A stretch of 64,000 nucleotides of DNA from an uncultured Flavobacteriales bacterium. GTDB taxonomy: Bacteria; Bacteroidota; Bacteroidia; Flavobacteriales; BACL11. The stretch spans positions 1 through 64,000 of the forward strand of contig CAJXYM010000006.1 in NCBI GenBank assembly GCA_913063045.1, given 5' to 3'. Both the position numbers and the translations under genes were made by a program. The notes under the pieces were generated by a model. It saw only the letters and a list, made by a program, of their open reading frames with translations, did not search any database and was not told the origin of the DNA. Below, one piece after another: positions 5,718 to 14,112 of this stretch; position 1 is the first letter of the stretch, and each line of letters starts with the position of its first letter.

Positions 5718-5748
5718 AAAAAAAACCACTCATTTGAGTGGTTTTTTT
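5718..5748. terminator. Intrinsic terminator hairpin; probably the ancestral terminator of tRNA-Val on the - strand before element insertion
   Basis: AAAAAAACCACTCA-TT-TGAGTGGTTTTTTT; perfect stem with A and T tracts on both sides. Confidence 0.8.
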
Positions 5749-5749
5749 G

Positions 5750-5771
5750 GTGGGCAATGAGGGACTTGAAC
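5750..5771 (-). repeat. att site, photolyase side: fragment of the tRNA-Val 3' end, followed outward by an encoded CCA
   Basis: gtgggcaatgagggact at 5750-5766 is identical to 12775-12791; identity resumes after one mismatch (gaac). Confidence 0.88.
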
Positions 5772-5821
5772 TTTCTCATTAATATACTGATATTCAGCAG
5801 TTTAAAATCTTAATTCTTAAT

Positions 5822-5843
5822 AGGACACCTAATAGGACACCTT
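5822..5843 (+). repeat. Arm-type repeat pair (two AGGACACCT units 12 bp apart), left end of element
   Basis: aggacacctaataggacacctt identical to 12643-12664. Confidence 0.8.
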
Positions 5844-5966
5844 ATTGGAATCTTTTAGCAAGAGTGTAAAGTTATTTTCACCCTGCGTGGCAAATGTATT
5901 AAATTTTATATGATTTTGAACTTTTAAAACTTCTAAATTAATTAGTAAGTTGTTAATATAGCTTGG

Positions 5967-6038
5967 TTTACGTAATCACCTTTGTGTTAAAAGGTAGTCT
6001 GATATACACACTAGATTTTGGTATTTTGAGTTATTATA
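5967..6038 (+). repeat. Imperfect direct repeat, copy 1 (left of cargo)
   Basis: tttacgtaat-N16-ggtagtctgatatacacactagattttggtattttgagttattat. The copy at 8981-9052 has the same spacing and about 40/45 identity in the distal block (hand count). Confidence 0.75.
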
Positions 6039-6477
6039 CACTAAAATTGTATTCAAAATAAGTATTAATGATTTACAAGGGTTTTCTTTTTTATGTTGTC
6101 AGATTTGATGTCGTTTTAGTGCTAATACATAGCTTTATTCCTCTTCTTTAGTATCTGTAAAGGTAATGTTGATGGCAATTAACTCTCTTACAAGCTTAGT
6201 AGTCGCACTTACCGAACCTTTAGAGCTTCCTGTAAGGTTTTCGCTTATACCTTTCTTAAATGGCACATTATATAATAGAAATTATGCACTTTTGTTTTAC
6301 TCAACAACAATCTTTTTCTCTACTGTCTGTTGTTTTTCTACTTTTCATCTTCTTTATTAAACTTTAATCCTATTTTTTGAGGTGTCCATTTTGCTTCAAA
6401 CAGTCTTATTATAATTCACCTATTTACAGTATATTGATTATATAATAATTAATTGTATAAATATATATAAGTATTTT

Positions 6478-7581
6478 TTAATAAAAAATGGAATTGATAA
6501 ACTCACTAGGATTCTCTTCCTTTAGCTTGTCTATAATAAATTCTTTGTGTGTTATTTTAAGATTATTCAAAGCATCAATAAGCTCCTTATCCGTAAAGCC
6601 TTCCTTTATCCTATATAAATCAACTAATTTTGCTGATATTGAATAATAAAAATCCTGAAAATCACCTCCAACTCTTTTACCCTCAACAAGGAATTTAATA
6701 AAATCCTCTCTTTCTTCTGCAGTTATTTTATTACTTACATTTTCTAATTTCTTTTGATAAGTTTGACCACCACTACCTCCATAAATAGTTGCTATTCCTT
6801 CATTTATAAAAGTACGAAACTTATATTCTCCATTTAGGATATAATGAATCATTTCATGTTTGTTTGATAAATATTCAGGAGAAAGAAGAAGGTTTTCATC
6901 AGGTATAGTTATTCCAGTCTGCATTAAAGCATAATCAAAACCGATAAAGTGTAAACTGCTTAAATAATTAATATTAATTATTTTTAATGGCTGAGTTTTT
7001 TTCTTTACCTCAAATCGTTTATACATCTCAAAATAAAAGGACACATCCTTTACTAATTCCTTTTTCTCTAATTCAGTAAAAGGTTCTAGTTGGTAAAAGG
7101 TAATATTTTCAATTGAATATGTATTATAATCAGTATAATCAGGACTAATATCTAGGTATGTTTCACCTTCTTTCTTAATGAAATTCAAATTAAAAATGGC
7201 ATTATAGAAATCATCATATTTCAAATTAAATGCTTCTGAGTTTAATTTGTAGATAACCTTAAAGTTTGTTTTCTCTGCATCTTGCTTAGAAGATAAAATT
7301 ACATATTCATTATCTTTATTTTTATAATATTTAGAGGAATAAAAATTTAAACTATATTTTTTAAATTGTTCTGAACTATTACTTTGAATATTAATTGAAT
7401 CATATTTTTTATTTAAAAAATAGTCAACTAATTCTAATTCCTTATTTAGAGTACTATCTTGCTCTAGCTGTATTCTAAAAATTTCAGAATGTTTTATTAA
7501 AGCAGAAGTGGTATCTGAGTTTTGAGCATAAATAATTGCTGCATAAAATTGTAGGACTGAAAGTATTATAATTAATCTCAT
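6478..7581 (-). CDS. Exported putative zinc metallopeptidase-like protein (HExxH...E)
   Basis: Signal peptide MRLIIILSVLQFYAAIIYAQ; HEMIHYIL...FINEGIATIYGG is a gluzincin-like arrangement. Confidence 0.6.
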   Translation of the reverse strand: MRLIIILSVLQFYAAIIYAQNSDTTSALIKHSEIFRIQLEQDSTLNKELELVDYFLNKKYDSINIQSNSSEQFKKYSLNFYSSKYYKNKDNEYVILSSKQDAEKTNFKVIYKLNSEAFNLKYDDFYNAIFNLNFIKKEGETYLDISPDYTDYNTYSIENITFYQLEPFTELEKKELVKDVSFYFEMYKRFEVKKKTQPLKIININYLSSLHFIGFDYALMQTGITIPDENLLLSPEYLSNKHEMIHYILNGEYKFRTFINEGIATIYGGSGGQTYQKKLENVSNKITAEEREDFIKFLVEGKRVGGDFQDFYYSISAKLVDLYRIKEGFTDKELIDALNNLKITHKEFIIDKLKEENPSEFINSIFY

Positions 7582-7750
7582 TTTTGTTTTTTCATGTTAA
7601 AATAAAGGTTTAACTGTACGTATTCTTTCCAAAGTGGTATAATTTGTAAATAGATTTCGCTTTTTATAAATAAGACTGTTTTCAAGCATTAGAGTTAATT
7701 TTACATCTCCTCTTTAAAATAGAAATTAAATCATTAAAAAAATGGAAACT

Positions 7751-8560
7751 TCATTTATTATTAAAAAAACTCGTGATATGATTGATATATAAATCTCCAA
7801 AATAATTTTTACTTAGTGAATGAAATCCTTGTAAATGCCCTCCATTAAATTCTATAATATTTATTTTTTTAATCTTTTTAAGTTCTGTGATTTCAGAAAA
7901 ATTATCTTCAGTTCCATGAAAAATAATTACATTTTTTGCATTTTGTAGATTTACAAAAAATAATTCATCATACTTCTTAGAAGATTTTGGGAGTAATATT
8001 TTACGATTTTTTAAATTTTCAACTTTTGTTGTGAAGTTACTTGTATTACTGACAACTCCCTCTAAAATAATATAATCAAGAGTATGTGTTTTCAAATAAG
8101 AGTTTGTTATTATTGTTCCCATTGATAAAGCTAAAACTCCAATTTTCTTATCATTCCATTTTTCTTTTACTTTACTAATAACAGTTTCTAGGTCATCTGT
8201 AAATTCGTTATAATACAGTTGCTTTTGATTTATTTCAAAACTTGAACTTTTGCCAAACCCTCTGTAATCAAATAATACAACATTGTATCCGTTATAGCTT
8301 ATGGAGTAAGCATGGTTTAATAAATAAGACATATTTCCAGCATCACCTCCTGCAATTATTATAACATTATTGTTATTATCATTTTTAACCAATGGACTAA
8401 GCCACCAACTATTTATTTTAGCTTTATCTTTAGTTAGTAGTTGATACTCTTTAAAATCTAATCCTAAAGAATCAGGTTCATATAGGTATTCAATAACTGG
8501 ATTTATTGATAATGCATTTACAAAGCTAAATAGTAATAATCCAAATAGTATTTTTTTCAT
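7751..8560 (-). CDS. Alpha/beta hydrolase with N-terminal signal peptide
   Basis: NVVLFDYRGFGKSS, nucleophile elbow LALSMGT, VIIFHGTEDNF, FNGGHLQGF; N-terminus MKKILFGLLLFSFVNALS. Confidence 0.85.
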   Translation of the reverse strand: MKKILFGLLLFSFVNALSINPVIEYLYEPDSLGLDFKEYQLLTKDKAKINSWWLSPLVKNDNNNNVIIIAGGDAGNMSYLLNHAYSISYNGYNVVLFDYRGFGKSSSFEINQKQLYYNEFTDDLETVISKVKEKWNDKKIGVLALSMGTIITNSYLKTHTLDYIILEGVVSNTSNFTTKVENLKNRKILLPKSSKKYDELFFVNLQNAKNVIIFHGTEDNFSEITELKKIKKINIIEFNGGHLQGFHSLSKNYFGDLYINHITSFFNNK

Positions 8561-8980
8561 AATCTTATTTTATTGTTAATCTATTGTTTTAAACTCCCCA
8601 AACTTAGTTATAATATATCTATTTTCAATAGTTTGAGTTTATTTATATAGGTTAAGAACTAAATACCGTAAGCAACACCTCAACTACCACTTGAAGAAAC
8701 ACACTTAAACAGCCACATTTAAAGTTCAATTTTATAACTATCTATATGCTCAATTTACAGGATGTAGAGTTGTTAATTATTCTCTTTTTAAGCCTTAAAA
8801 ACCTTAAAATACTTCAATATAATAAATAACTAACTTTTATTAATTAATCATTGATAGGTTTGTTTGAGTTCGGAACTGCTGGGTAGATGTAAGTCTTAAT
8901 AACAATACTTTGCCAGACATTATTTTACACTAATAAGGGTAATTCCAATAGTATAATTGTAAATAATTGATTAGTAGTTA

Positions 8981-9052
8981 TTTACGTAATTATGATGCTA
9001 TTTATAGGTAGTCAGATATATACATTAGATTCTGGCATTTTGAGTTATTATT
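8981..9052 (+). repeat. Imperfect direct repeat, copy 2 (right of cargo)
   Basis: tttacgtaat-N16-ggtagtcagatatatacattagattctggcattttgagttattat; pairs with 5967-6038. Confidence 0.75.
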
Positions 9053-9110
9053 TTCCTAATTTAAGAGGGAGAATACATGATTTTATTATACACATGATTA
9101 GTAATGATAA

Positions 9111-9305
9111 CTAAAAATTATAAGCCATAATATGAAAGCCTGTTATATCCTGCAAAGAAGCTACTTGAAACAGCTTTAGAGCCCTTGTAGAGCTATCTAA
9201 TGATACTTCTGCAATGTTACGGCTGTCTATGGGGTAAGAGAGATAAATCCCTCTGCTATCAATATAAGTTTGAACACCATTTTTGTTTATGAAATATGTA
9301 TGCAT
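9111..9305 (-). CDS. Small hypothetical protein, overlapping the end of the polymerase-like gene
   Basis: 64-aa ORF whose start overlaps the stop of the upstream gene at 9305, consistent with translational coupling. Confidence 0.45.
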   Translation of the reverse strand: MHTYFINKNGVQTYIDSRGIYLSYPIDSRNIAEVSLDSSTRALKLFQVASLQDITGFHIMAYNF

Positions 9306-10837
9306 TATGCTGTTTTTTTAATTGTTATAGGATTATCAGCTGACCAATAATCCACTTTAAAAGATGGTTCAAGACCTATTGCTATTATCATTTCTTCCCG
9401 CATTACTTGCTCTACATAATCCTCATTACCTAATGTAGTAGCAACAGAATCGTGAATAGTAGTAATAAATAAGTTGGGTCTTTCAATAGAAATACGCTTT
9501 GCCACTCTATTCAAAATAATAGTACTTTCAATAATTTGTAGGGTAATAGGAAGGACTGTGCTATCATTACGCTTAATATGAAAGAGTATATCATAAACAG
9601 ATGGGAATAATTCCTTAAATATTCTTTTAGGTTTAGCGTCAGCTTGTCCTAAGAACCTGTTATCAGTAAACAACACTTGAAATACTGCTGCCTTAACACC
9701 CCTACCATCAATATCAGCTATACCCTGTTGTTCTAACTGCATTTCTTTTGATAGAAACTTGTACAAATCCCCACTCTGGCAAAGGTCAATATACCTTTGA
9801 ATATCAACAGGAACAGCTATACTTACAGGTGGAATACCTGTTTTTGTAAACATAATATAAGAAGTATAGCTAAAGGGATTACAAGACATTGTTATAATAT
9901 CACTGAAAACACTGGGTAATATGTCTGAATTATTAAGAATATTAGGTTTTAAACCTTTTTTTAGAATTTTCTCCTCCATTTCTGCAGTTGCTGTGGCGTC
10001 AGTATTCCAAAACACTGGACTTAACAGTGTAGTACTAAGCATTGGCTGTGAATTTGCAAAATCAACTGATACTATTGGCTGACCATTATAAGTAACATAA
10101 TTCCTAAGCTCACTTTTAATATTAGTAAGGTTAGTATGCACCCTATATGCAGTTGAATCTTGTGTAAAACCAAAATCTTTGTTATCAATCCTATCTATAT
10201 TATCTAAACCAACAGTCAACCTAACTGTAGGATTTGCAGGTTTTTTTAATGATTTACTTTTATAAGTGGCACTAGCTACCTTTAACTCATATTTAGCTAA
10301 CTTACTAGAGTATTCTAATTTATCTTGCTTATACATACTCCAAGCACATTCAGAAGCCCCCTCTACATCAATTTCTAAGCCATCTAAATATTTATATAAG
10401 AAGCCATACTTTTTTTCAGTAGCATAAGATGAATTAGATTTTTTAGAAAGCTTCCTTACTAAAGAACCCTTACAAATGGTTACTTTCTTAGGAGTAGCAT
10501 CCGCATAACTATCTGTAAAACTAAACCCCTTACATTTTTTACCATTGATATATTGATTATCTGTTTTGAAAACATCAGCTTTAACCAACCAATCAACAGT
10601 TGCCTTATAATCATTACCAAATAAGTGTTTCAATTTAGTAGCACTTATATAGGTATAATCCCCATACAAAAGCCTTTGGTTCTCCTGCATTGGGTATAGC
10701 TCGTTAATCATTGCTAAGAGCTGATAAACCTTATATTCTTTAGGTTTATAATCCTCCTTATTAGGAGAATGAATTTTCAGTAAAATACTGTGGTTATAGT
10801 TTTTGGGTATGTATTTGTTCTTAACTTCTTTACTCAT
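9305..10837 (-). CDS. Putative replication protein with family-A polymerase-like palm motifs
   Basis: GQPIVSVDFANSQPMLST (motif A-like), RGVKAAVFQVLFTDNRFLG (motif B/O-helix-like), PNLFITTIHDSVATTLG (motif C-like HD). Located between HTH gene and element end. Confidence 0.5.
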   Translation of the reverse strand: MSKEVKNKYIPKNYNHSILLKIHSPNKEDYKPKEYKVYQLLAMINELYPMQENQRLLYGDYTYISATKLKHLFGNDYKATVDWLVKADVFKTDNQYINGKKCKGFSFTDSYADATPKKVTICKGSLVRKLSKKSNSSYATEKKYGFLYKYLDGLEIDVEGASECAWSMYKQDKLEYSSKLAKYELKVASATYKSKSLKKPANPTVRLTVGLDNIDRIDNKDFGFTQDSTAYRVHTNLTNIKSELRNYVTYNGQPIVSVDFANSQPMLSTTLLSPVFWNTDATATAEMEEKILKKGLKPNILNNSDILPSVFSDIITMSCNPFSYTSYIMFTKTGIPPVSIAVPVDIQRYIDLCQSGDLYKFLSKEMQLEQQGIADIDGRGVKAAVFQVLFTDNRFLGQADAKPKRIFKELFPSVYDILFHIKRNDSTVLPITLQIIESTIILNRVAKRISIERPNLFITTIHDSVATTLGNEDYVEQVMREEMIIAIGLEPSFKVDYWSADNPITIKKTA

Positions 10838-11145
10838 TAGGCAGCTCTCTTATTATCGTTAAGCACTTTAAGTATTGCTTTACGCTCATAATAAAGAGTG
10901 CCCCCTATCCTAGTGTAAGGGATTTTTCCATTGATTCTATGATTCTGTAGTGTACCTGTGGAAAGGGTTAGCATCTTCATTACCTCTGCTGACCTTAGCC
11001 ACTCCTTTTGAGTAGTTGTTTTTTCTGTTATTAGTGCTATTTCACTAATAATTTCTTCTTTCATTTTTTGAAGGTCTTGTACTGTAACTAAGTTGTTTTT
11101 ATCCATATTTAATATGTATTGATTTGTATTAATATCATATAACAA
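10837..11145 (-). CDS. Helix-turn-helix DNA-binding protein (excisionase/MerR-type HTH)
   Basis: EWLRSAEVMKMLTLSTGTLQNHRINGKIPYTRIGGTLYYERKAILKVL, typical of Bacteroidota HTH proteins on integrative elements. Confidence 0.85.
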   Translation of the reverse strand: MLYDINTNQYILNMDKNNLVTVQDLQKMKEEIISEIALITEKTTTQKEWLRSAEVMKMLTLSTGTLQNHRINGKIPYTRIGGTLYYERKAILKVLNDNKRAA

Positions 11146-11275
11146 ATTTTAATTGAATAATTAGTCAAAATTAAGTATTATCTCTAATTTGCTTTTCAAC
11201 ATAATGTGAGTAACTAACCATTATGAGGGTCTATTTATACACCATGGTTTGTCGTATATAGGATTAAATATTTTT

Positions 11276-12505
11276 TTATGAGGCTTTCTGTGTTCCTTTT
11301 AAATTTATATTCATCAGTTTCTTCATGTCATCAGCTATTTTACTGTCAATTATCTTGGCATAAATCTGTGTGGTTTTTAAATCTTTATGCCCTAGAATTT
11401 TTGCAACAGTTTCAATAGGAACTCCTTTAGTGAGTGCATAAGTTGCAAAAGTATGTCTTGCAGTATGCATAGTTAGATTTTTGGTTATCCCACACAAATC
11501 AGCTATTTCTTTTAGATAGGCGTTCATATTTTGGTTTGAAAGGACTGGCAGAACACTGCCTTTATTAACTGCTAAGGGGTGGCCTTTGTATTTGTTAATT
11601 ATTTTAAGAGCTTGTGGTATCAAAGGAATGTGAGATGCTGTATTTGTTTTTTGCCTTCTGATATGTATCCACAGGTTGCCATCAATACCTGTATGTAAAT
11701 TATCAGGATTAAGTTTTTCTACATCAACAAATGCTAAGCCAGTAAGACAACAGAAAGCAAATATATCTCTGACTAGCTCCAAACGTTTTATTGTAAATTC
11801 TTTGCTAAGTAAAATCTGAATCTCATTTTCTGTTAAGAACTCTTTTACTACCTCTTTGTTTTTCATCTTAAACTTACGGAATGGGTTTTTATCTATCCAT
11901 TCATTGTCTAGAGCAATATTAATCATCTTTATTAAGTGTGATAGGTATTTATTGGTTGTGTTTCTGCTGATGTTTTTTACACTTAAAAGATAATGCTCAA
12001 AATCTGTGATGAAACCGAAAATTACTTCACCTAAATGTATATCATCTGCTTTATAGTTAAACTTAATAAACTCCTTTAAATGTTTGTAGGAAAGCTCATA
12101 TTTACCAACAGTAGCAATTGCATAACCTTTGCCTATGAGCTGATTGATTTTTTTGTTATGGTTCTCAAAAACCCCAAGAAGTGTTTTTTTATCAGGATTA
12201 ATGTCTAATACAGCATTTTTAAGAGTCCCTGCTGTAATTGATTTATTCTTTTGCATTAACTCTTGTTGATTTTCATAAACCTTAGCTTGTATAGTGTCTA
12301 GGTATTTGTTCAGTGATTTTGTTTGTTCGTTAGAGCCTTTTGCTCTGCCCTTAGTATTGTTCCATTTGTTAGGGTCAATTGTTCTTTTGGCAGAAAATTC
12401 AGCTCTTTTTCCATTGATAGTTATGCGTACATAGATTGGTACAGTACCATTTGATTTTGTTTTACTTGTTCTGATGTAGAAAAGTAGTGAGAAAGTATTT
12501 GTCAT
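11276..12505 (-). CDS. Tyrosine recombinase/integrase, Bacteroidota type
   Basis: N-terminal arm-binding-like domain FSLLFYIRTSKTKSNGTVPIYVRITINGKRAEFSAKRTIDPNKWN; catalytic block HTARHTFATYALTKGVPIETVAKILGHKDLKTTQIYAKI. Confidence 0.96.
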   Translation of the reverse strand: MTNTFSLLFYIRTSKTKSNGTVPIYVRITINGKRAEFSAKRTIDPNKWNNTKGRAKGSNEQTKSLNKYLDTIQAKVYENQQELMQKNKSITAGTLKNAVLDINPDKKTLLGVFENHNKKINQLIGKGYAIATVGKYELSYKHLKEFIKFNYKADDIHLGEVIFGFITDFEHYLLSVKNISRNTTNKYLSHLIKMINIALDNEWIDKNPFRKFKMKNKEVVKEFLTENEIQILLSKEFTIKRLELVRDIFAFCCLTGLAFVDVEKLNPDNLHTGIDGNLWIHIRRQKTNTASHIPLIPQALKIINKYKGHPLAVNKGSVLPVLSNQNMNAYLKEIADLCGITKNLTMHTARHTFATYALTKGVPIETVAKILGHKDLKTTQIYAKIIDSKIADDMKKLMNINLKGTQKAS

Positions 12506-12642
12506 TTTAAAGTATTTTAGACTCCTATTTATTGCTTACAATATACATAATTTTAAGTTAATATGCAACAGAATAAACTATATAATTCACATATTATCAA
12601 CACTTTACACTCTTTCTGGTGTCCCATTTCAAAACTTAAAAA

Positions 12643-12664
12643 AGGACACCTAATAGGACACCTT
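12643..12664 (+). repeat. Arm-type repeat pair, right end of element
   Basis: aggacacctaataggacacctt identical to 5822-5843. Confidence 0.8.
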
Positions 12665-12705
12665 TAATATGGGATTTAATAGTGTTATTTGGTGATGTTG
12701 GAAAA

Positions 12706-12737
12706 CAAAAAACCCCATAAACACTTAGTTTACAGGG
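12706..12737 (-). terminator. Intrinsic terminator supplied by the element, directly downstream of tRNA-Val
   Basis: - strand CCCTGTAAAC-TAAGT-GTTTATGGGG-TTTTTTG; 10-bp stem including two G-T wobbles, then a T tract. Confidence 0.75.
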
Positions 12738-12775
12738 TTGTTGCTAAAATTTGGATTCTTTTGGTAGAATATCTG

Positions 12776-12850
12776 TGGGCAATGAGGGACTCGAACCCCC
12801 GACTTCCTCCTTGTAAGGGAGGCACTCTGAACCAACTGAGTTAATCGCCC
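12776..12850 (-). tRNA. tRNA-Val (anticodon TAC)
   Basis: GGGCGATTAACTCAGTTGGTTCAGAGTGCCTCCCTTACAAGGAGGAAGTCGGGGGTTCGAGTCCCTCATTGCCCA folds as a cloverleaf with anticodon loop CTTACAA. Confidence 0.95.
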
Positions 12851-12906
12851 TGAATTGTTTGCAAATATATATGAATTCTTTAATAATTAGGTTTTTTATG
12901 CAATTA

Positions 12907-14112
12907 TTATAATACTTCTGCTACTATAAAAGTACTTCCTCCAATGAAAATTAAATCATCCTTACTAGCATTTTCTTTTGCATTAATATAAGCCTGATTA
13001 ACTGAGCTAAATTCATCACCATAGAGATTAAATTCTTCAGCTCTTTGCTTAAGGATGTTAGTTTGAAGTGCACGGTCTATTTTTGCTGCACAAAAATAAT
13101 ATTTTGCTTTTTTGGGAAGTAATTTGAATACGTTTGTTAAAACTTTGTCATTTACACTACCAAAAATAAAATGCAACTTATTAAATTTTGTTTTTTCAAT
13201 TTGACGTAAAATATTTTTAATTCCATCTTCATTATGACCGACATCACAAATGGTTAGAGGATTCTCTGATAGTTTTTGCCATCTTCCTTCTAATCCTGTG
13301 TTTTTTAAAATATTATTTATTCCCTTATTAATCTGTTCATTGCTTATATTCCAATTTAATACTTCAATAGCTTTAATCGCTGTGCCAATATTCTCGTTTT
13401 GATAATCACCTTTCACATCAGTTGTAATATTTTTAGGATTATCATTATAATATAATTTAGCATTTTTTTCTTTTGCAATACTCTTGAAAATTTCCTTTGT
13501 TTTATCCTGTTTTTTTCCAATAATTATTGGAGTATTTTTTTTGATAATTCCTGCTTTTTCAAATGCAATTTTTTCAATGGTATTACCTAATAAGTTTGTA
13601 TGATCTAATCCAATATTCGTTATTATTGAAAGTTCAGGATTAATAATATTAGTGCTATCTAGTCTTCCGCCTAAACCAGTTTCAATAATTGCTATGTCTA
13701 CTTTTGATTCTGTAAAATAATTAAATGCCATTGCAACAGTAAATTCGAAAAATGACATATTTATTTTTTCAAATTCTAATTGATTTTCTTTTATAAAATT
13801 TATGATATATTTCTTATCTATTGTCTTGCCATTAATTTTAATTCTTTCTCTAAAATCTTTTAAATGAGGAGATGTATAAAGTCCAGTTTTATAGCCTGCT
13901 TCTTGAAGTATTGATGCTAGCATATGAGCAGTAGAGCCTTTGCCATTTGTGCCTGCAATATGAATAGTTTTTATTTTTTTTTGAGGATTATTAAGAATTT
14001 TACATGCTTTTATTATGTTCCCAATATCTTTTTTGTATGCTGCAATGCCACTTCTTTGATACATAGGTAGTCTTTGAAAGAGATACTCTACACTTCTCTT
14101 ATAATCCATCAA
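12907..14112 (-). CDS. folC: Bifunctional folylpolyglutamate synthase/dihydrofolate synthase
   Basis: IHIAGTNGKGSTAHMLASILQEAGYKTGLYTSPHL...ETGLGGRLDSTN. Confidence 0.95.
   Translation of the reverse strand: MMDYKRSVEYLFQRLPMYQRSGIAAYKKDIGNIIKACKILNNPQKKIKTIHIAGTNGKGSTAHMLASILQEAGYKTGLYTSPHLKDFRERIKINGKTIDKKYIINFIKENQLEFEKINMSFFEFTVAMAFNYFTESKVDIAIIETGLGGRLDSTNIINPELSIITNIGLDHTNLLGNTIEKIAFEKAGIIKKNTPIIIGKKQDKTKEIFKSIAKEKNAKLYYNDNPKNITTDVKGDYQNENIGTAIKAIEVLNWNISNEQINKGINNILKNTGLEGRWQKLSENPLTICDVGHNEDGIKNILRQIEKTKFNKLHFIFGSVNDKVLTNVFKLLPKKAKYYFCAAKIDRALQTNILKQRAEEFNLYGDEFSSVNQAYINAKENASKDDLIFIGGSTFIVAEVL

Follow-up and report, generated by a model that had tools for sequence, protein, structure and literature searches.

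A probable family-A-like polymerase in the replication position of a tRNA-integrating element from a Flavobacteriales genome

A 510-aa open reading frame in the genome of an uncultured Flavobacteriales bacterium raises the question of whether a small integrative element can supply a polymerase of its own, and what kind of synthesis such a protein would carry out. The window examined is a stretch of 64,000 nucleotides, and the features relevant to this question are collected in Table 1. The first-pass annotation, which was made from the sequence alone, had placed a possible undescribed replicase or primase-type polymerase at 9305-10837. Its coordinates and length are correct. The reading frame, however, runs on the minus strand, whose translation gives the peptides quoted earlier; read in the plus direction, the same stretch contains many stop codons.

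Table 1. Coordinates of the integrative element, its genes and the predicted domains and motifs of the polymerase within the window.
Feature	Position	Strand	Evidence or remark
Integrative element including both att cores	5750..12791		7,025 bp core to core; 17-bp direct repeat
att core copy, distal end, GTGGGCAATGAGGGACT	5750..5766		Exact repeat of tRNA-Val 3′ end
12-bp tandem pair with AGGACACC, probable integrase arm-type sites	5818..5842		Tandem repeat
Cargo: 367-aa secreted-looking protein with HEMIH (HExxH-like) motif	6478..7581	-	No Pfam match
Cargo: alpha/beta hydrolase, signal-like N-terminus	7751..8560	-	Pfam Hydrolase_4 1.1e-12
64-aa ORF, one-base overlap with the polymerase stop	9111..9305	-	No Pfam or PHROG match
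Pol A/ssRNAP-like element polymerase	9305..10837	-	510 aa; motif conservation and fold
C-terminal palm/fingers region, residues 223-510	9305..10171	-	Motif conservation, fold match
Motif C HDS, residues 462-464	9446..9454	-	H462 and D463 invariant
Motif B region GRGVKAAVFQVLF, residues 378-390	9668..9706	-	K382 invariant; profile alignment
Motif A region DFANSQ, residues 259-264	10046..10063	-	Positions derived from the ORF start, 10837
N-terminal domain, residues 1-222	10172..10837	-	Winged-helix-like part (about 34-121) and long helices
HTH_17 protein, 102 aa from TTG	10837..11145	-	Pfam HTH_17 1e-08
Tyrosine recombinase (integrase), 409 aa	11276..12505	-	Pfam Arm-DNA-bind_5 3.5e-22, Phage_int_SAM_5 1e-17, Phage_integrase 1.5e-17
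Second AGGACACC tandem pair, probable integrase arm-type sites	12643..12662		Also in sister element L258 at 9571/9583
att core copy within tRNA-Val 3′ end	12775..12791		17-bp repeat
tRNA-Val (tac), integration target	12775..12850	-	ARAGORN; Rfam tRNA 68 bits

The open reading frame is part of a DNA segment that combines a recombinase, att repeats, a tRNA target and evidence of transfer, as expected of a tRNA-targeting integrative element. Downstream of the tRNA-Val gene, the minus strand carries the recombinase, the HTH_17 gene, the polymerase, the 64-aa ORF and two cargo genes, in that order. One-base TAATG overlaps link the HTH gene to the polymerase gene and the latter to the 64-aa ORF, which bears out the earlier pairing of the polymerase with an HTH gene. 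The part of the HTH_17 protein that is common to the sister element described below begins at residue 14, an ATG. The sequence AGGACACC occurs four times in the 64 kb, compared with 0.35 occurrences expected, and forms two 12-bp tandem pairs just within both ends of the element; from their sequence and arrangement, these pairs are probable integrase arm-type sites. No relaxase or conjugation genes are found within 5744-12810, either in the list of open reading frames or among the Pfam matches of its genes, and no replication origin was identified in the element. A second att repeat of at least 13 bp was sought in 35 other loci and none was detected within the DNA covered; both ends are therefore defined only for the window element and its identical copy.

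The larger of the two cargo proteins, with its HEMIH...NEG residues and signal-like start, resembles a zinc metallopeptidase. The cargo genes are flanked by a 71-bp imperfect direct repeat (80%; 5967-6037 and 8981-9051), which is also present in another locus, L260, at 12887-12942 (96% over 56 bp). A role for this repeat as a polymerase-specific origin was rejected, since no polymerase gene is seen in L260.

The evidence of transfer comes from a genome of another genus of the same family (G171; locus L041), in which 7,067 bp, corresponding to window positions 5744-12810, are 100% identical. The flanks of the two copies are about 70% identical on the tRNA (right) side and unrelated on the left side. 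Identical DNA between such unlike flanks indicates recent transfer. A chimeric assembly could possibly place the same stretch in two genera, but each genome has its own junctions, which makes this explanation the less likely one. Near-identical polymerases accompanied by the same cargo are also found in Winogradskyella, Lacinutrix and Arcticimaribacter. At three loci from different genera (L046, L048 and L062), the same TonB-receptor and Fur-type cargo lies beside near-identical polymerases, which likewise points to recent transfer.

Residue conservation was assessed in an alignment of 68 homologues of the window polymerase, including distant viral copies. R232, which lies upstream of motif A, and D259, N262, Q264, Y359, K382, E437, T460, H462 and D463 are invariant in all 68, so that the polymerase-like motifs A, B and C noticed by eye are real. 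Among them are the metal-binding Asp residues of motifs A and C (D259 and D463) and the Lys of motif B (K382), as in the family-A superfamily. S464 of motif C is kept in 62 of the 68. For motif B, the earlier assignment holds for the region around K382 and fails for the spacing of its Arg: an R or K stands four residues before K382 in 66/68 homologues, whereas the window protein has R379, only three residues before, a shift of one position that is possibly compensated. An aromatic residue occupies the fourth position after K382 in 50/68 homologues (F in 48, Y in 2), and F is found at the eighth position in 55/68. The dN/dS ratio of the polymerase, computed for 24 close pairs, is 0.06-0.18 (about 0.1), and its close relatives are under purifying selection.

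The palm/fingers fold suggested by the order and spacing of these motifs agrees with structure prediction. An AlphaFold model of the 510-aa protein, made from the 68-protein alignment (pLDDT 85.5, pTM 0.85), is of the palm type. With a cut-off of 0.001, Foldseek returned 70 PDB matches. The best 50 of these 70 comprise 49 family-A DNA polymerases (Pol I, Pol theta and related enzymes; E from 3.4e-5, probability 0.99-1.00) and the mitochondrial RNA polymerase 6ymv. TM-scores are low (0.22-0.37) and the rmsd is large over the full length, probably because the domains are placed differently. The best matches in BFVD are A0A516L5C2 (4e-21) and A0A8D9FR19, a “Putative DNA polymerase I” (4.8e-18), and a Barba “DNA polymerase” is also among the BFVD fold matches (4.2e-6). 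A separate domain is predicted for residues 1-222 (pLDDT 88.9) and has no significant match in the PDB; its weak matches are often winged-helix proteins, replication initiators among them. As had been noted previously, there is no 3′-5′ exonuclease domain, judging from the length of the protein, its model and the PDB search with the N-terminal domain.

Sequence profiles are much weaker than the fold. The window protein itself matches no family in Pfam, PHROG or NCBIfam: PF00476 (DNA_pol_A) is not reached at E<=10, nor are PF00940 (T7-like ssRNAP) or the AEP/PriCT families of primase-polymerases in Pfam. Searches of PDB sequences with phmmer and hmmsearch gave nothing useful for the polymerase, PADLOC gave no defence match, and the profile and sequence searches linked the protein to no different replication-initiator family. 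Across the 68 relatives, PF00476 is absent from the 25 most-matched Pfam families, PF00940 is weakly matched by three members (best 0.003), and PHROG “RNA polymerase” families are matched by four and three members. Profile-profile comparison with bacterial Pol I gave a score of 25.2 (P 0.019), weak at every setting tried; the alignment is collinear over motifs B and C and puts K382/F386/F390 on the K..F..Y of Pol I. Comparison with ssRNAPs gave a score of 35.9 (P 6.6e-4) over motif C only. This best score, together with the weak RNA polymerase matches of a few relatives, agrees with the first-pass annotation, in which motif C had been considered closer to the T7-like RNA polymerase form. A control comparison of Pol I with ssRNAPs, which are known relatives, scored weaker still (20.2, P 0.18), and the method is therefore underpowered here. 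It is thus the fold that decides the superfamily, and sequence cannot settle between DNA and RNA polymerase. On the basis of the model, the protein is best regarded as a divergent, exonuclease-less member of the Pol A/single-subunit RNA polymerase superfamily. The host also encodes a normal Pol I.

The best functional evidence is a gene exchange which indicates that the polymerase occupies the replication slot of the element. A sister element in genome G201 (L258) is located at the same tRNA-Val, and its recombinase and HTH protein are each 85% identical to those in the window. Homology between the two elements is lost where the HTH gene ends; it restarts at window positions 8547-8910. The window element has 1,886 bp in between, containing the polymerase gene and the 64-aa ORF, whereas the sister element has 722 bp with a 232-aa gene in their place. 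The product of this gene matches a replication initiation protein family (phrog_4707, 3.7e-22) and a DnaD-like loader family (phrog_186, 1e-12). In other Flavobacteriales, related HTH genes are often followed by relatives of this initiator, in one locus (L282) with a DnaC-like helicase loader next. Since the polymerase gene adjoins the recombinase and HTH genes while the cargo varies, overlaps the HTH gene and is swapped for an initiator, it behaves as part of the core of the element and not of its cargo. The earlier suggestion of an element replication protein is supported by this context, with the activity itself being predicted. Elsewhere in the element group, a small gene of L260 (10487-10882), about 9 kb from a related pair of recombinase and HTH genes, matches REP_ORF2-G2P (2.6e-6) and perhaps represents another replication type.

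The polymerase family is widespread and unnamed, and occurs in Bacteroidota elements and giant phages. Homologues were found in 18 of 298 sampled genomes of the order, and a scan of 84,980 species genomes yielded 92 relatives; almost all of the 80 listed among these 92 are from Bacteroidota. Further homologues are encoded by huge uncultured phages, six viral contigs and one Hymenobacter plasmid. Viral contigs searched with the single window protein gave no relative, and tblastn with three family members retrieved uncultured huge phages only and no barbaviruses. The unannotated phage family phrog_4756, which matches 21/68 relatives (best 2.7e-11) and is not reached by the window protein, is probably a phage branch of the same family, judging from these profile matches. 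With no Pfam or NCBIfam model for the window protein and a PHROG that has no recorded function, members are likely to be held in databases as hypothetical proteins.

A tyrosine recombinase gene lies within 5.5 kb of the polymerase in 64/89 loci, and about 37 of the 50 loci scanned have a tRNA no more than roughly 0.4 kb from the recombinase. Two main layouts are found among the 89 loci. In 23, recombinase, HTH, polymerase and cargo follow one another; in 20, the recombinase is convergent to the polymerase, and divergent AAA_24 and DUF3871 genes are present. The AAA_24 ATPase is Sak4-like (phrog_124, 5.8e-9). The one-base overlap of HTH and polymerase genes is present in 13 of the 19 relatives measured. 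An O-like replication initiator is encoded between the two genes in L058. In a gut Bacteroidales element (L084, 3594-7293), the beginning of the polymerase gene is shared with a UvrD helicase gene, and AAA_24 and DUF3871 genes come next. The Hymenobacter plasmid has a separate replication initiator, and in the huge phage LR756511 (L038, 6010-8456) a gene whose product includes the C-terminal part of DNA_pol_A (1.2e-19) overlaps that of the homologue; the polymerase therefore need not be the only replication protein.

Cargo downstream of the polymerase includes DNA methylases (D12, N6_N4, HsdM) in L044, L049 and L058, and several elements thus probably carry restriction-modification systems. 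The arrangement of recombinase, HTH and polymerase genes was also encountered on a 4.9-kb contig of a Methanosarcinaceae MAG (L054), which is possibly misbinned Bacteroidota DNA. One genome of the same class (L150) encodes a second PF00476 protein of 529 aa (9.2e-32) beside a normal Pol I.

The open reading frame probably encodes a catalytic polymerase of the family-A/ssRNAP superfamily that replicates this small tRNA-integrating element, its catalysis being predicted. The recombinase would excise the element as a circle with the help of the HTH_17 protein, the N-terminal domain of the polymerase would bind the element or its origin, and the palm would synthesise element DNA, or a first stretch of it, alongside host factors. 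In motif B, the Klenow residues F762/Y766 have M635/Y639 as their counterparts in T7 RNA polymerase, so that the fourth position after the Lys is F in Pol I and M in T7 RNA polymerase; the Y639F form of the latter accepts dNTPs. From model and sequence, DNA synthesis appears likelier than RNA synthesis, being favoured by the ranking of the fold matches and by the aromatic residues at the fourth and eighth positions after K382, while RNA synthesis is favoured by the HDS form of motif C and the weak RNA polymerase-family matches. A T7-like RNA polymerase or primase-type enzyme, making RNA primers (or transcripts) from element DNA with the primers extended by the host replisome, has a real but minor chance of being the correct description. 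It would account for the higher profile score against ssRNAPs and for 6ymv among the fold matches, but that profile match is confined to motif C, the other 49 of the best 50 PDB matches are DNA polymerases, the motif B aromatics argue against it, and no repeats resembling promoters were noticed in the element.

The remaining alternatives concern whether the protein is needed, or active, in replication. An accessory repair or translesion polymerase, carried along and dispensable for replication of the element, would be in keeping with the repair or transcription role proposed for the phage protein divPolA2 (PMC11348598), with the initiator of the Hymenobacter plasmid and with the second polymerase gene in the huge phage. 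The constant position beside recombinase and HTH genes amid changing cargo, the overlap with the HTH gene and the exchange for an initiator in the sister element make such a role unlikely. Very improbable is a degenerate polymerase that has lost its activity and is retained because its winged-helix-like N-terminal part binds DNA and initiates replication. The weak resemblance of this part to winged-helix proteins, its collinear alignment with the sister-element initiator (P 0.042, not convincing) and the shifted Arg of motif B in the window copy are consistent with it, but the catalytic Asp residues and Lys are invariant even in distant viral copies, and the low dN/dS in close pairs also argues against loss of activity.

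A putative replicative family-A-like polymerase in an integrative element can be compared with several known systems. Bacterial A-family polymerases have been grouped as PolA1-3 and PolA1-like (PMC12926913). The window protein shares the palm/fingers fold and the order of motifs A, B and C with Pol I and PolA1-PolA3, but is without exonuclease domains and without a DNA_pol_A Pfam match, and the Pol I motifs DYSxxE (A) and HDE (C) contrast with DxxNSQP and HDS in its family. The HDS motif and the weak PF00940 matches of some relatives recall T7-like ssRNAPs, yet the protein is much shorter, has another N-terminal domain and finds mostly DNA polymerases in the PDB. A compact enzyme mixing motif features of Pol I and T7 RNA polymerase would be useful for understanding how DNA and RNA polymerases diverged within the superfamily. 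DivPolA2 of barbaviruses and related phages, for which a similar ambiguity between DNA and RNA synthesis was discussed (PMC11348598), is by its description also a PolA-like palm protein lacking an exonuclease, in which an unrelated globular domain at the N-terminus takes the place of a normal thumb, and it likewise has fold matches to both Pol I and mitochondrial RNA polymerase. It is, however, a phage accessory gene with a variable neighbourhood, whereas the family described here adjoins a recombinase in tRNA-integrating elements of Bacteroidota.

A parallel at the level of the whole element is provided by pipolins, which also combine tRNA integration, a tyrosine recombinase, att repeats, variable cargo and a polymerase of their own, and whose piPolB is reported to be primer-independent (PMC7385651). 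Family-A polymerases in tRNA-integrating elements were not found described in the open-access literature, and the present case would extend polymerase-encoding integrative elements, of which the family-B case is already known, by a family-A branch. The exchange of polymerase and initiator between elements that are otherwise about 85% identical offers a natural and directly testable comparison. It is conceivable, though rather doubtful, that these are self-synthesising elements found throughout Bacteroidota, in which one exonuclease-less family-A polymerase with a DNA-binding N-terminus would act as initiator, primase and replicase, as a family-A counterpart of pipolins. By analogy of the elements, the polymerase described here is best considered an analogue of pipolin PolB, with the difference that pipolins encode a family-B enzyme and the window element one with a predicted family-A fold.
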